Source of the DNA: Acidimicrobiia bacterium
Lineage (GTDB): Bacteria > Actinomycetota > Acidimicrobiia > Spongiisociales > ZC4RG35
Length of the DNA stretch: 64,000 nt
Direction of reading: 5' to 3'
Assembly: GCA_026002975.1 (NCBI GenBank)
Contig: BPGJ01000011.1
Coordinates: forward strand, 23,813-87,812
This document shows positions 45,063-48,307 of the stretch, piece by piece. The notes under the pieces were generated by a model. That model was not told where the DNA came from and did no database searches. It saw only the letters and a program-made list of their open reading frames with translations. Position 1 is the stretch's first letter; every line of letters starts with the position of its first letter. Made by a program: the position numbers and the translations under genes.

Positions 45063-46254
45063 TGTCTCGGGCGTCGTCCTCGGCTCCGAAGATGAAGCTC
45101 GACTTCCTTCGCCTCAAGAAGGTGAGCCCGATCCGATACAGGCCCGGCGACTCGGTCACCACCCCCCCTTCGTGTTTGAGCTGACCCTTCCTGTCGAAAA
45201 CCGGTATGTGGAGCCATGAGTGGTCGGGAACGAAACCGGTCGCCCAGATCACCGTCCGCACCTCACCGACCCGAAGCGACAGCGGAGGATCGGGATCGAC
45301 CCGGGTGGGTGGGAAACGGTGGGGAGGTTCCACCTCGTCCTCCAGGCCCCTCTCGACGATCCACTCGTCGATCTGGTCGAGGAGCCGCCCCATCTTCAGG
45401 TCGGCGAGCTTCACCTTGTTGGGGAGCGAGCCGGAGAACTGCAGCTCCCTTCCCGAGATCCCGGCCAGACGACCCACCAGGCGAACCCCCATGTCGGTGA
45501 GGGCGTTCAGATCGAAGATGTCCCTCTCCCGCGACCCCACCAGCTGGGGTGAGGGAACCCGCCTGGCTCTGACTATGTCGTCCACCTCGTCGTACCGTTC
45601 GTCGGCCCGCCCGGTTTTCTCCATCCACCATTGGATGTCCCGACCCCGGTAGGTCCTGGGCATCCGCACGTGCTCGCCGACCGACAAGGTGACGGGACGT
45701 CCCGATCGGTGGATCTCGGCCGCGATCTGGATCCCGGTGGCAGACGCACCCACCACCAGCACCCCGCCTTCGGGTAGGAGATCCGGCCCTCGGTATTCGA
45801 GGGGGGTCAGCGTCGTGACGTCGGTGGGTAGCGCCGAGGCGATCTCGGGGACCTTGGGGAGGTTGAACCCGCCCGAGGCGATCACCACCGTTTCGGCCCA
45901 CCAAACCCCGTTGTCGGTCTCCACCCGATACCCGTCGCCGCTACGGGTGACCGAGGTGACCGTGGTGTGGGTGACCAGCGGGGGGTCCACGAACCTCGCG
46001 TAGTCCTCGATGAAGCGGACCACCTCGTCGACGGTCATGAACCCATCCGGGTCATCGCCTCGGTAGGCGAAGCCGGGCAGCCGGCTCTGCCAGTTGGGGG
46101 TGAGCAGCCGCAGCGAATCCCACCGCTCGGTCCGCCACGTGTTGGCCACCTCTCCCCGTTCGATCACCACGTGATCGATCGACAGTTCGGTGAGGCAGCG
46201 GCTCACCGCCAGGCCGGCGTGCCCGGCCCCCACCACCACGGTCGTGGTTCTCAC
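45010..46254 (-). CDS. Flavin-containing monooxygenase-like FAD/NADPH oxidoreductase
   Basis: The protein has 414 residues. The FAD motif VVVGAGHAGLAVSRCL opens the protein, and RWDSLRLLTPNWQSRLPG follows in the position expected for this group. A second Rossmann motif for NADPH reads VLVVGASATGIQIAAEI, and the late motif TVIWATGFVPDHSWL is typical. It would oxygenate a soft nucleophile such as S or N. The GTG start overlaps the OsmC stop, so both genes lie behind the SAM riboswitch and leader peptide. This supports an organosulfur role by context. Confidence 0.82.
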   Translation of the reverse strand: MRTTTVVVGAGHAGLAVSRCLTELSIDHVVIERGEVANTWRTERWDSLRLLTPNWQSRLPGFAYRGDDPDGFMTVDEVVRFIEDYARFVDPPLVTHTTVTSVTRSGDGYRVETDNGVWWAETVVIASGGFNLPKVPEIASALPTDVTTLTPLEYRGPDLLPEGGVLVVGASATGIQIAAEIHRSGRPVTLSVGEHVRMPRTYRGRDIQWWMEKTGRADERYDEVDDIVRARRVPSPQLVGSRERDIFDLNALTDMGVRLVGRLAGISGRELQFSGSLPNKVKLADLKMGRLLDQIDEWIVERGLEDEVEPPHRFPPTRVDPDPPLSLRVGEVRTVIWATGFVPDHSWLHIPVFDRKGQLKHEGGVVTESPGLYRIGLTFLRRRKSSFIFGAEDDARDITRHLAGYLASRVRAAG

Positions 46255-46823
46255 CGGTCGGCGGGTGTGACCTCGACGGTGACCTGGGTCGGGTTGGTGA
46301 TGATGTCGAACACCGCCGACCGCTTCTGGGATTGAGCCACGAGGGCCTCGATCTCCTCAGGGGTCGCGTCGGCGTCGATCTCGTACTTGACCCGGATCCG
46401 GTTGAACCCGTTACGCACGTCGGGATCGGCACCCAGGATGCCGAGGATGTTCATGTCGCCCTCGAGGGTCGCCTTGACCGACCGGAGTTGGATCTCCCGG
46501 TTCTGCGCGACCGCGGCGATGCCGGCGGTGAGGCAGCTGGCGAGACCGACCAGCACTATCTCGACCGGGGTGGCGCCCTGATCCTCGGCGGCGAACACCT
46601 CGGGGTGGTCGGCTTCGAAGGTGAAGGTCCTGCGGTGCCGGTGCTCCTCTCCGAGGCCGAAGTAACTCTCCACCACCGAGCGGCTGTGGGTGCCGTTGAT
46701 CCATTCGTTGGTGGCCCGCCAGGTGAACTGGGCGGCTTCCGGCGCGTCCGACAGGGCGGCGCGGGCTTCGAGCAGGGCCTGCACGTTGACACCGTTGTCG
46801 ACTGGGGTTCCTGTGATCGTCAT
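46251..46823 (-). CDS. OsmC-family protein with only the first active-site Cys
   Basis: The protein has 190 residues with the OsmC fold. The peroxidatic Cys is in VLVGLASCLTAGIAAVAQ. The second, resolving Cys position in QSQKRSAVFDIITNP is Ser, so it cannot form the usual internal disulfide. It may instead use a free low-molecular thiol or have another function. GTCAGCAGGAGGAAACATG gives a strong start. It is the first structural gene after the SAM riboswitch and Cys-Cys leader peptide and is coupled to the flavin monooxygenase. Confidence 0.82.
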   Translation of the reverse strand: MTITGTPVDNGVNVQALLEARAALSDAPEAAQFTWRATNEWINGTHSRSVVESYFGLGEEHRHRRTFTFEADHPEVFAAEDQGATPVEIVLVGLASCLTAGIAAVAQNREIQLRSVKATLEGDMNILGILGADPDVRNGFNRIRVKYEIDADATPEEIEALVAQSQKRSAVFDIITNPTQVTVEVTPADR

Positions 46824-46853
46824 GTTTCCTCCTGCTGACAGAAGTGACCGGAC

Positions 46854-46918
46854 GCGGACGCCTGCGGTGTTGCTCTCGGGTGGTGGCGTCCGCTAGGCGG
46901 AGTCGACCACCCGAGAGC
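46854..46918 (-). promoter_or_regulatory. Attenuator-like pair of mutually exclusive hairpins
   Basis: Hairpin A pairs GCTCTCGGGTGGT with ACCACCCGAGAGC, a perfect 13-bp stem whose 5' arm lies in the leader codons right after Cys-Cys. The loop contains GCGGACGCC, which is perfectly complementary over 9 bases to GGCGTCCGC just downstream (helix B). A and B cannot easily form together. A ribosome stalled at the Cys codons would cover the 5' arm of A and favour B. This is the geometry of ribosome-mediated attenuation. Confidence 0.6.
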
Positions 46919-46976
46919 CGGCACAGCACATCCGGCTTGGGGTGGTCGTAGGAAGGATCATCGATGTACGGCTCAT
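46893..46976 (-). CDS. 27-residue Cys-Cys leader peptide (uORF)
   Basis: A short frame starts ATG AGC CGT after GAGAGGAGCCCT, a good Shine-Dalgarno sequence. It encodes a peptide ending PSRMCCAGSRVVDSA. Two adjacent Cys codons (TGC TGT) precede the 5' arm of a strong hairpin, and the TAG stop lies inside that hairpin's loop. Cys-rich leader peptides before sulfur genes are known in actinobacteria. The position between a SAM riboswitch and an osmC-flavin monooxygenase operon fits a cysteine-sensing attenuator. It is too short for the ORF track. Confidence 0.6.
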   Translation of the reverse strand: MSRTSMILPTTTPSRMCCAGSRVVDSA

Positions 46977-47042
46977 AGGGCTCCTCTCGCTTCTCGTCTA
47001 CGCGCTCTTCGAGCGCCGCGAGCGGATCCCCGCCGTCGGCGA

Positions 47043-47123
47043 CTCATCGATCAGGCTTTGGCACCGTGCTTCGGCCGGTTGCCGTGGCTTCACAGGGCCT
47101 GTCCCTCCACCACTCTTGATGAG
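47043..47123 (-). ncRNA. SAM riboswitch (SAM-I clan; compact, possibly SAM-I/IV type)
   Basis: The minus strand has all core blocks of the SAM-I aptamer in order. P1 is CTCATC paired with GATGAG, followed by AAGAGTGGTGGAGGGAC, GGCCC, TGAAGCCACGGCAACC and GGTGCCAAAGCC. The four-way core matches the family almost base for base, but the internal P4 helix is very short or absent. This points to the SAM-I/IV variant group. A small hairpin GCGCTC-GAA-GAGCGC follows at 47002-47016 and could be the expression platform or outer pseudoknot hairpin. It controls the leader peptide, osmC and flavin monooxygenase unit. Confidence 0.88.
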
Positions 47124-47129
47124 CGCGTT

Positions 47130-47166
47130 GGCCGGGAAGTAGAGCACAACCCGGCCGAGGAGTCAA
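47130..47166 (-). promoter_or_regulatory. Promoter of the riboswitch-osmC operon
   Basis: TTGACT is followed by a 17-nt spacer and TCTACT, placing the transcription start a few bases before the aptamer's first helix. A 7-bp inverted repeat (GGCCGGG and CCCGGCC) brackets the -10 box and could be a repressor site. Confidence 0.65.
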
Positions 47167-47218
47167 GCCTGCGACGATCCACACCGTCTCACCTCCCGAC
47201 CGATAGCGTTCCCGCCAC

Positions 47219-48307
47219 ATGAGCGACGAACGAAAGGAACAGGACGCTCCTCTCGAAGACGACGAGGAGACCCGCGACCTCGAGCGAGACGAGCGCACCG
47301 AAGAGCGACAGCAGCGACGGGCCACCAACTGGTGGCAGCGGCGACGGGTCGAGCCGGAGGAGCGGGATCGGGTCCTGGGTGAGTTGTTCCAGGAGGGGGA
47401 CCGCCGGGTCCCCTACCTGTATCGGTTGGCGTTCCTCCAGTCGATGTCGGTGGTGGTGGCGGTGGTGGGGATGATGGCCGACTCGCCCGCCCTTGTGATA
47501 GGAGCCATGCTCCTGGCCCCGCTCATGTCCCCGGTGCTGGCGGTCGCCGCCGCCCTGGTGATGGTGTGGCCCAAACGCCTCGCCTTCTCCGCAGGGCTGG
47601 TCGCTCTGGCCAGTCTCGGGTCGGCGGGGCTGGCGTGGGCCATCGCCGTTCTGCTCCCCGACCTGATCGCCGGACCGCTACCCCACGAGCTCACATCCCG
47701 CACCAGTCCGAACCTGCTGGATCTGGTGGTGGCTCTGGCCGCCGGAGCGGCGGGCGGATACTCGATGGTCCGGGAGGAGGTCGGTCGGGCCTTGCCCGGG
47801 GTGGCGGTGGCGGTGGCGTTGGTTCCACCACTGGCCGCGGTGGGCCTCGCCCTCTCCCTCGGAGAGGCCGGTTTGGCGGTCGGCGCGGGGCTGTTGTACG
47901 TCACCAACCTGGCGGCCATAGTCCTGGCGGCCGGGGTCGTGTTCCTCGCCACGGGTTTCATTCCCACCGTCAGGGTGTCCCGCCTGTCGTGGCAGGTGGG
48001 GCTGGCGTTGGCTGCGGCTCTGGTGCCGGTCGCCCTGGTGGCGGTTCCCCTCACCCGGACCCTCCAGGACTCGTTGGCGGAAGCGTCGACCCTTCGGGAG
48101 GTGGGGCGGGTCGTGCCGGCGTGGCTGGCGGGCGAGCCCTTCGATCTGGTCGAGGTGCGGGTCGCACCCGACCAGGTGGTGGTGGTCCTGGCCGGTGACG
48201 GCACTCCCCCTCCGGCATCCGAGCTGGCCGCGCTCCTACCCGATCCCCCACCCGAAGCGATCCGGGTCGACGTCATCCAGAGAACCACCGACGTGTTCTA
48301 CCCCTGA
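47219..48307 (+). CDS. DUF389 family membrane protein
   Basis: The protein has 362 residues. A highly charged N-terminus of about 60 residues (DERTEERQQRR) is followed by the DUF389 core with six or seven hydrophobic segments. Family motifs are VIGAMLLAPLMSPVLAVAAA and ALPGVAVAVALVPPLAAVGLAL with the conserved AxxPP. A short C-terminal domain sits on the inside or outside. The ATG lies 9 nt after TAGCGT, so it is probably leaderless. The role of the family is unknown; its promoter is back-to-back with the riboswitch operon promoter. Confidence 0.82.
   Translation: MSDERKEQDAPLEDDEETRDLERDERTEERQQRRATNWWQRRRVEPEERDRVLGELFQEGDRRVPYLYRLAFLQSMSVVVAVVGMMADSPALVIGAMLLAPLMSPVLAVAAALVMVWPKRLAFSAGLVALASLGSAGLAWAIAVLLPDLIAGPLPHELTSRTSPNLLDLVVALAAGAAGGYSMVREEVGRALPGVAVAVALVPPLAAVGLALSLGEAGLAVGAGLLYVTNLAAIVLAAGVVFLATGFIPTVRVSRLSWQVGLALAAALVPVALVAVPLTRTLQDSLAEASTLREVGRVVPAWLAGEPFDLVEVRVAPDQVVVVLAGDGTPPPASELAALLPDPPPEAIRVDVIQRTTDVFYP

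Follow-up and report, generated by a model that had tools for sequence, protein, structure and literature searches.

At Clostridium ubiG, S-box antisense control is combined with a Cys T-box. Mycobacterial polycysteine leaderless short ORFs are said to have been described by Canestrari et al. in 2020 as leaders in which a structure sequesters the downstream ribosome-binding site. Translation attenuation has been described for the polycysteine short ORFs of M. smegmatis (PMC9031893, PMC13236596), and in mycobacteria such a Cys-rich ORF stands first in sulfur operons across the regulon (PMC9031893, PMC13236596, PMC9094748). A 2005 survey proposed candidate cys leader peptides with Cys runs in Mycobacterium, Propionibacterium and Bifidobacterium, and its available text reports no conserved hairpin (PMC1262725). 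Among riboswitch leaders, Rho-dependent termination has been shown or considered for the riboswitch-uORF leaders of M. tuberculosis (PMC12810186, PMC11260477), SAM-II has been described acting at a distance (PMC9373788), and the mRNA of a Pelagibacter OsmC under SAM-V control rises ~50-fold on sulfur limitation (PMC5069961). Our search of the open-licence PMC literature found no paper in which a SAM riboswitch and a cysteine leader peptide are combined.

A leader of this combined kind lies at positions 46854-47166 of the window, by which we mean the whole 64-kb stretch of DNA that was analysed; we read it directly and scanned it with Rfam, and all leader features given below are on the minus strand. 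The scan placed a SAM-I riboswitch aptamer (RF00162) at 47125-47041, covering model positions 1-108 of 108 with 71.3 bits against a gathering score of 44.4 (E 1.1e-14), and RF00162 was the sole Rfam family to reach its gathering score in all 64 kb. The first-pass annotation had recognized a SAM-I-clan aptamer here and had named a SAM-clan covariance match as the check, which this hit supplies; the element is accordingly assigned to the SAM-I class by sequence and structure. The P1 helix that had been called perfect is present, as six Watson-Crick pairs plus one G-U. Upstream, a -35-like hexamer TTGACT (47161-47166) and a -10-like hexamer TCTACT (47138-47143; a weak consensus match), separated by a 17-nt spacer, are visible by eye as previously stated, and a sigma-70 consensus scan called no promoter at TTGACT-N17-TCTACT. 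The TTGAC core recurs 25-55 nt upstream of 71 of the 147 SAM-I aptamers of the window's order within the Acidimicrobiia (among the matches listed), where 2.7 would be expected from shuffles. The aptamer indeed starts close to this promoter, with the Rfam start lying 12 nt past the -10-like hexamer rather than within the 8 nt originally given.

The leader is followed, in the gene order first proposed, by osmC (46251-46823, minus strand), encoding an OsmC-family protein of 190 aa (Pfam PF02566, 65.8 bits) with orthologues behind the same leader, and by operon gene 2, encoding a flavin-dependent oxidoreductase of 414 aa (46254-45010, minus strand). The oxidoreductase resembles the MSMEG_0569 family, with a TIGR04046 score of 351 bits that falls below the family cut-off of 498, and its gene stands behind the OsmC gene in 23 of 28 OsmC loci examined, with a partial match in one more. 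A divergent DUF389 gene (47219-48307, plus strand) starts 53 bases from the leader's -35-like hexamer.

SAM-I was detected in 95 of 138 genomes of the order. The window genome holds four SAM-I riboswitches, at the window operon, at a second osmC-type gene whose protein is 31% identical to the window OsmC, at a metH/homocysteine-methyltransferase-like gene and at a metX-like gene. Across the order we read 149 leaders among the ~150 matches listed, leaving out G002:C21, and found downstream of them osmC (47), metH-like genes (41), metY (24), metX (8), smaller groups and 8 that could not be placed; gene names in these clusters other than those scored with Pfam or NCBIfam are our own reading of the sequences.

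The stretch behind the aptamer has the features of an expression platform directed at a start site. A single strand, GAGCGCG (47001-47007), is common to two pairings: a hairpin at 46977-47031, which in the minimum-energy fold sequesters the Shine-Dalgarno (SD) sequence of a short upstream ORF (uORF; SD GAGAGGAG, 46988-46981), and an anti-P1 pairing with CGCGCTC (47121-47127), the P1 5' strand and its flank. The small hairpin that the first-pass annotation had seen after the aptamer (GGCGCTC/GAGCGC at ~47017-47001) is real and belongs to this platform. Anti-P1 pairing covaries across the 147 leaders among the matches listed (18.66 vs a partner-swapped maximum of 16.60), as does the pairing of the SD region with the platform (18.06 vs 16.83, n=70); in the 53 stacked leaders alone the anti-P1 signal is slight (20.68 vs a swapped maximum of 20.43), because sequences vary little there. 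In predicted folds, the P1 state lies at -68.4 kcal/mol with the uORF SD paired and the forced anti-P1 state at -65.6 kcal/mol with the SD largely free. The competition between P1 and an alternative platform pairing that characterizes SAM-I is therefore seen both in the anti-P1 covariation and in a gap of 2.8 kcal/mol by which the anti-P1 fold stands above the P1 fold.

Comparison of start positions carried this point across the order. Among the starts listed, the first SD-led start lies 51-71 nt past the aptamer in 27 of 41 metH-like, 4 of 4 thrC-like and 4 of 4 metE-like leaders, and, where a start was called in an osmC leader, 53-77 nt past it in 44 of 45. Several plain SAM-I leaders have no such uORF, and in these the platform precedes the enzyme gene's own start. 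Since the platform covers the uORF SD here and stands before the enzyme gene's own start elsewhere, the uORF sits at the SAM-I-controlled start site.

This uORF is the one of 27 codons described at the outset (MSRTSMILPTTTPSRMCCAGSRVVDSA, 46893-46976, stop TAG at 46895-46893), with adjacent Cys codons TGC TGT at 46928-46923. It is SD-led and lies ~155 nt behind the presumed transcription start, a position at odds with leaderless initiation, and its peptide ends in ...M-C-C-A-G-S-R-V... Conservation of the frame and of the Cys codons in related genomes, which had been set as a further check, was examined and both are kept. In two families of the order, most leaders of OsmC orthologues (66-82% identity) encode an in-frame peptide ending in M-(C/G/R)-C-(P/L/A)-G-S-R-V or something close to it; the ending in L036 is different. 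When osmC-leader uORFs were picked by SD alone, regardless of Cys, 44 of the 47 osmC SAM-I leaders among the matches listed showed an SD-led first ORF of <70 codons, 41 of them with Cys; of the other three osmC leaders, two have Met runs (MAMMPSSRV) and one is a wrong start by this rule, with a Cys-Met peptide visible. Cys and Met make up 8.1% and 4.4% of residues in 43 such uORFs, which are not independent because relatives share ancestry, against 0.85% and 1.00% in main ORFs. No NCBIfam family matched the leader peptides at E up to 1. The locus therefore offers what an attenuator leader peptide requires, a short ORF with an initiation signal and control codons of the pathway amino acid, and a chance uORF is ruled out by the conserved frame, stop and control codons.

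Absent from the first-pass annotation was a conserved stem of 11-12 bp, S1, directly after the control codons. Its 5' arm (CTCTCGGGTGG, 46907-46917) is formed by the Ser-Arg-Val codons and starts one base before the Ser codon, its 3' arm (CCACCCGAGAG, 46873-46883) lies beyond the stop codon, and the uORF stop falls in its loop. A stem-only search recovered S1 in 38 of 138 genomes of the order and the reversed pattern in none, and a stricter stem pattern run against an 84,980-species collection returned 15 stretches, all from MAGs, whose titles read Acidimicrobiia, Acidimicrobiaceae, Actinomycetes or Actinomycetota, with two titled Acidobacteria that are apparently genomes placed in the order. 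From 96 oriented stem matches we retained 48 distinct instances, one orientation each, after merging exact context duplicates; 46 were oriented by the 3' arm sequence and two (L131, L165) by hand, and G114:C69 was left out.

The frame of these instances is strongly constrained. Read in the Ser-Arg-Val frame, 47 of 48 instances have a stop codon between the S1 arms, against 22 and 8 for the other two frames. One or more Cys fall within six codons upstream in 46 (32 and 7), and two or more in 33 (4 and 1); the frame-1 Cys counts (32/48; 5.8% in the uORF set) are mostly an effect of reading ATG-TGT one base out of register. Three codons ahead of Ser stands Cys in 39 instances and Met in nine, together 48 of 48, and in the window this position is taken by the second of the Cys-Cys control codons (TGC TGT, 46923-46928). 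Thus the proposal of conserved Cys codons in the uORF stands and that of Cys-Cys adjacency does not: some close relatives have Met-Gly-Cys or Met-Arg-Cys, and the conserved feature is a Cys or Met three codons before Ser-Arg-Val. In 44 of 48 instances, 6-11 nt separate the end of the uORF stop from the S1 3' arm. As in an attenuator, the control codons are placed such that a stalled ribosome would mask one helix arm.

Support for the stem itself was drawn from an alignment, A1, of 64 of 66 listed rows. Both sides are changed at seven of 12 S1 pairs, a count that leans towards S1 because 18 of the rows were chosen for visibly complementary arms; the one pair left free by the search pattern, the unbiased part, reads UA in 45 rows and CG in 18 with no mismatch. 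A few osmC SAM-I leaders (L036, L081, L121) have a Cys/Met peptide and no S1.

A second helix, S2, joins the S1 loop to the sequence downstream. In the window it is a perfect nine-pair helix between GCGGACGCC (46893-46885), just past the stop codon, and GGCGTCCGC (46862-46854); in relatives an ACGCC-like strand lies between the stop and the S1 3' arm and a GGCGT-like strand downstream. S2 covaries in the 48 pattern instances (16.81 vs a partner-swapped maximum of 15.65) and in the 64 rows (17.62 vs 15.62), as does an apical hairpin within the S1 loop (18.41 vs 15.13, n=46). Because S1 and S2 cross, they either form an H-type pseudoknot or alternate. The fold of the uORF-to-S2 stretch has z = -3.57, with 0 of 200 shuffles as low. 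An extension of S1 in the window fold, with the Cys codons pairing to the S2 3' strand, was discarded at 15.98 vs a swapped maximum of 16.52 in 48 relatives.

A separate set of uORFs was seen at metH-like SAM-I leaders (L070, L074, L102, L125, L129, L141 and others), where 13 of 18 of the short, different uORFs contain Cys. Many of their stops overlap the start of the metH-like gene, an arrangement that suggests termination-reinitiation under SAM-I in place of the pseudoknot.

We infer from these sequence comparisons that the leader responds to SAM and to cysteine, and we consider it probable, with a fair measure of doubt, that it is a two-input sulfur-starvation leader working as a serial gate, in which SAM sets uORF translation, the translating ribosome reads the Cys/Met supply and the pseudoknot is the off state. 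High SAM would keep P1 closed and the uORF untranslated, the pseudoknot would form and the operon would be off. At low SAM, ribosomes would start the uORF. Where Cys-tRNA and Met-tRNA are plentiful, the ribosome would reach the stop, whose inferred geometry has it cover the S2 5' strand, and would then leave, allowing S1 and S2 to form and holding expression off or low. Where they are short, the ribosome would stall, its A site at the control codon, and cover the base of the S1 5' arm, S1 could not form, and transcription would reach osmC and the oxidoreductase gene. The proposed SAM gate and the stalling step together would therefore make expression need both low SAM and low Cys (or Met).

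As the step by which the pseudoknot would act on the operon, an intrinsic terminator, the classical attenuator feature, was rejected, as 46700-47260 contains 0 terminator-like sites and no U-tract. Sequestration of the osmC SD by the leader was likewise rejected, since pairing between the two does not rise above partner-swapped controls (12.46 vs a mean of 12.55; 13.66 vs a maximum of 14.26). With neither a U-tract nor a covarying cover over the osmC ribosome site, Rho-dependent termination is favoured and is probably the output step behind the leader.

The same evidence bears on translation attenuation, in which S1/S2 would cover the osmC ribosome-binding site until a ribosome came to a halt on the Cys codons and uncovered it. 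The peptide is of the same kind as the mycobacterial ones and several copies look leaderless (L002, L204, L244-L246, L249-L251), which speaks for such a step; the osmC SD region, however, has no covarying complement in the leader, and the spacing between S1 and the osmC start ranges widely, 48 to 161 nt in 35 leaders, leaving this explanation unlikely. An unusual intrinsic terminator, with S1 and the apical hairpin acting as a U-less terminator, is less likely still: the hairpin is very stable and GC-rich in the predicted fold, but no U-run follows it here or visibly in relatives, and S2 would be left without a role.

To follow the leader peptide and its pseudoknot through the order, we built a model, R1, from alignment A1. 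R1 has matches in 65 of the order's 138 genomes; among 296 genomes drawn from the class it matches 44, of which 43 lie inside the order and one, G307, lies outside it with a weak partial match (E 6e-4). The stem pattern occurs in 31 of 296 genomes of the class; outside the order it turns up only at one place in G209 and, as a different repeat present in several copies, in G293, and a wider spread of the element was therefore rejected. The G293 repeat, on contigs 5 and 6 (L211), has CTCTCGGGTG/CACCCGAGAG arms in several copies, in a genome of another family of the class. We read 31 of the new R1 matches; in 30 of them an in-frame stop falls 43-67 nt past the start of the match and the peptide is rich in Cys and Met (...TCMCLCMCSRV...), with L271 not fitting the pattern. 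Their Cys/Met content is partly expected, because the control codons are among the columns of A1 from which R1 derives, while stop position and downstream genes are not expected on this ground. Genes downstream of the element encode OsmC, metY and metZ products, rhodanese-domain sulfurtransferases, SsuA-type sulfonate-binding proteins and DUF4395 proteins, with enzyme scores of 666 bits for O-succinylhomoserine sulfhydrylase and 590 bits for O-acetylhomoserine sulfhydrylase.

The aptamer stands before only some copies of the element. Comparing the table of 48 instances with the SAM-I leader loci, we found SAM-I called upstream in 34 instances, among the matches listed, and not in 14; the 14 include L165, which has a chance CGGCAACC and no Rfam SAM-I call, and L188, which starts too near a contig end for SAM-I to be judged. 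Where SAM-I is absent, several copies look leaderless, their start being directly preceded by TTGAC and a -10-like box. One of these is the third copy in the window genome (L212 / G000 contig 2, ~147842-147778, minus strand; L002), with no SAM-I on its strand, where a leaderless-looking uORF with SCCCGCCVRSRV in our translation precedes a rhodanese-type sulfurtransferase-like gene. Leaders L244-L246, L249-L251, L254-L256, L258, L260, L261, L268 and L269 also have no SAM-I on their strand; their very Cys/Met-rich, often leaderless-looking peptides precede sulfurtransferase, metZ-like and other genes. At the sulfurtransferase-leader promoters of L015 and L183, a palindrome like AACACTATCCCGATAGTGTTAAT lies tens of nt upstream of the stem and is a candidate repressor operator.

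This separability in evolution, seen in the 14 instances with no called SAM-I and in the many SAM-I leaders with no such uORF, could be taken to mean that the two modules are independent, with SAM-I exerting its effect on transcription or on the stability of the RNA, while the uORF serves as a Cys sensor translated at any SAM level. We give this possibility little weight, as the platform covers and covaries with the uORF SD and, where no uORF is present, the same platform precedes the enzyme gene's own start. Least credible, to the point of being nearly negligible, is that the peptide is a by-product of a conserved structured RNA with Cys/Met codons arising from RNA constraint, for although S1 fixes the Ser-Arg-Val codons and changes in S1 change the peptide (Arg replaced by Gln in L090/L091, Ser-Arg-Val missing from L088), the control codons are not part of S1 and fall where no pairing is supported, TGT, TGC and ATG interchange there, 47 of 48 instances keep the stop in frame, and the N-terminal portions hold the frame despite differing in length and sequence.

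Collectively, the serial gate at osmC extends to a broader reading, towards which the balance tips only slightly: an undescribed, ribosome-run sulfur regulon in one Acidimicrobiia order, with the leader peptide and pseudoknot at many operons, where an invariant Cys-or-Met control codon would read both sulfur amino acids, and SAM-I, upstream at osmC, metY and some ssuA copies, gating translation of the peptide as a serial AND gate for low SAM and low Cys/Met-tRNA. The stacked two-sensor leader of the first-pass annotation is thus upheld, and its view of an uncommon one-operon design gives way to a leader peptide and hairpin that are regulon-wide in the order. Occurrence of the SAM-I and leader-peptide pair in many related species suggests a shared way of deciding when sulfur genes are switched on. 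With a riboswitch coupled in series to an amino-acid-sensing peptide, the riboswitch would decide whether the second sensor is read, and the order of control, SAM first and cysteine second, becomes directly testable. The association of OsmC, its oxidoreductase partner and DUF4395 proteins with sulfur supply is in turn a lead on their function.

Set against known systems, the leader peptide, as read from its sequence, resembles Cys attenuators and departs from the defining feature of each: it has no intrinsic terminator, it is not leaderless here, and ribosome-site sequestration is unsupported. Like the mycobacterial polycysteine short ORFs, it is a Cys-rich first ORF of sulfur operons and regulon-wide, and several copies in the order look leaderless; unlike them, it is followed by a conserved pseudoknot, fixes the position of the control codon, admits Met besides Cys, is SD-led and stacked on SAM-I in the osmC/metY copies, and shows no covariation above control for sequestration of the downstream ribosome site. 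With the cys leader peptides of the 2005 survey it shares Cys-codon runs near the stop, an actinobacterial host and the lack of a terminator, and it differs in the conserved S1/S2 structure, a conserved hairpin being unreported in the survey's available text (PMC1262725); for one actinobacterial order, the conserved RNA structure reported missing there is now supplied. The LEU element of actinobacterial leuA leaders likewise joins a leader peptide to a conserved pseudoknot, but uses Leu codons and a base stem that pairs the control codons with the leuA SD, as described in the available text (PMC1262725), a pairing unsupported here. The uORFC-8-2 motif also has conserved stems and a uORF whose Cys codons stand in tandem, and according to its own section, which makes no mention of a riboswitch, is confined to Rhodobacterales cysS and has an intrinsic terminator (PMC8632094); the window leader has no such terminator, and its downstream gene is osmC rather than cysS. 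The M-box (PMC12810186) and B12 riboswitch (PMC11260477) of M. tuberculosis are similar in placing a uORF behind a translational platform, and differ in ligand and in that the available text of these papers does not describe their uORFs as amino-acid sensors. The aptamer, finally, is like other SAM-I (S-box, RF00162) elements in its full length, a score above the curated threshold, its position before sulfur/methionine genes and its P1-based switch, and unlike them in that its platform would act on the start of a short leader-peptide ORF rather than on a terminator or an enzyme gene.
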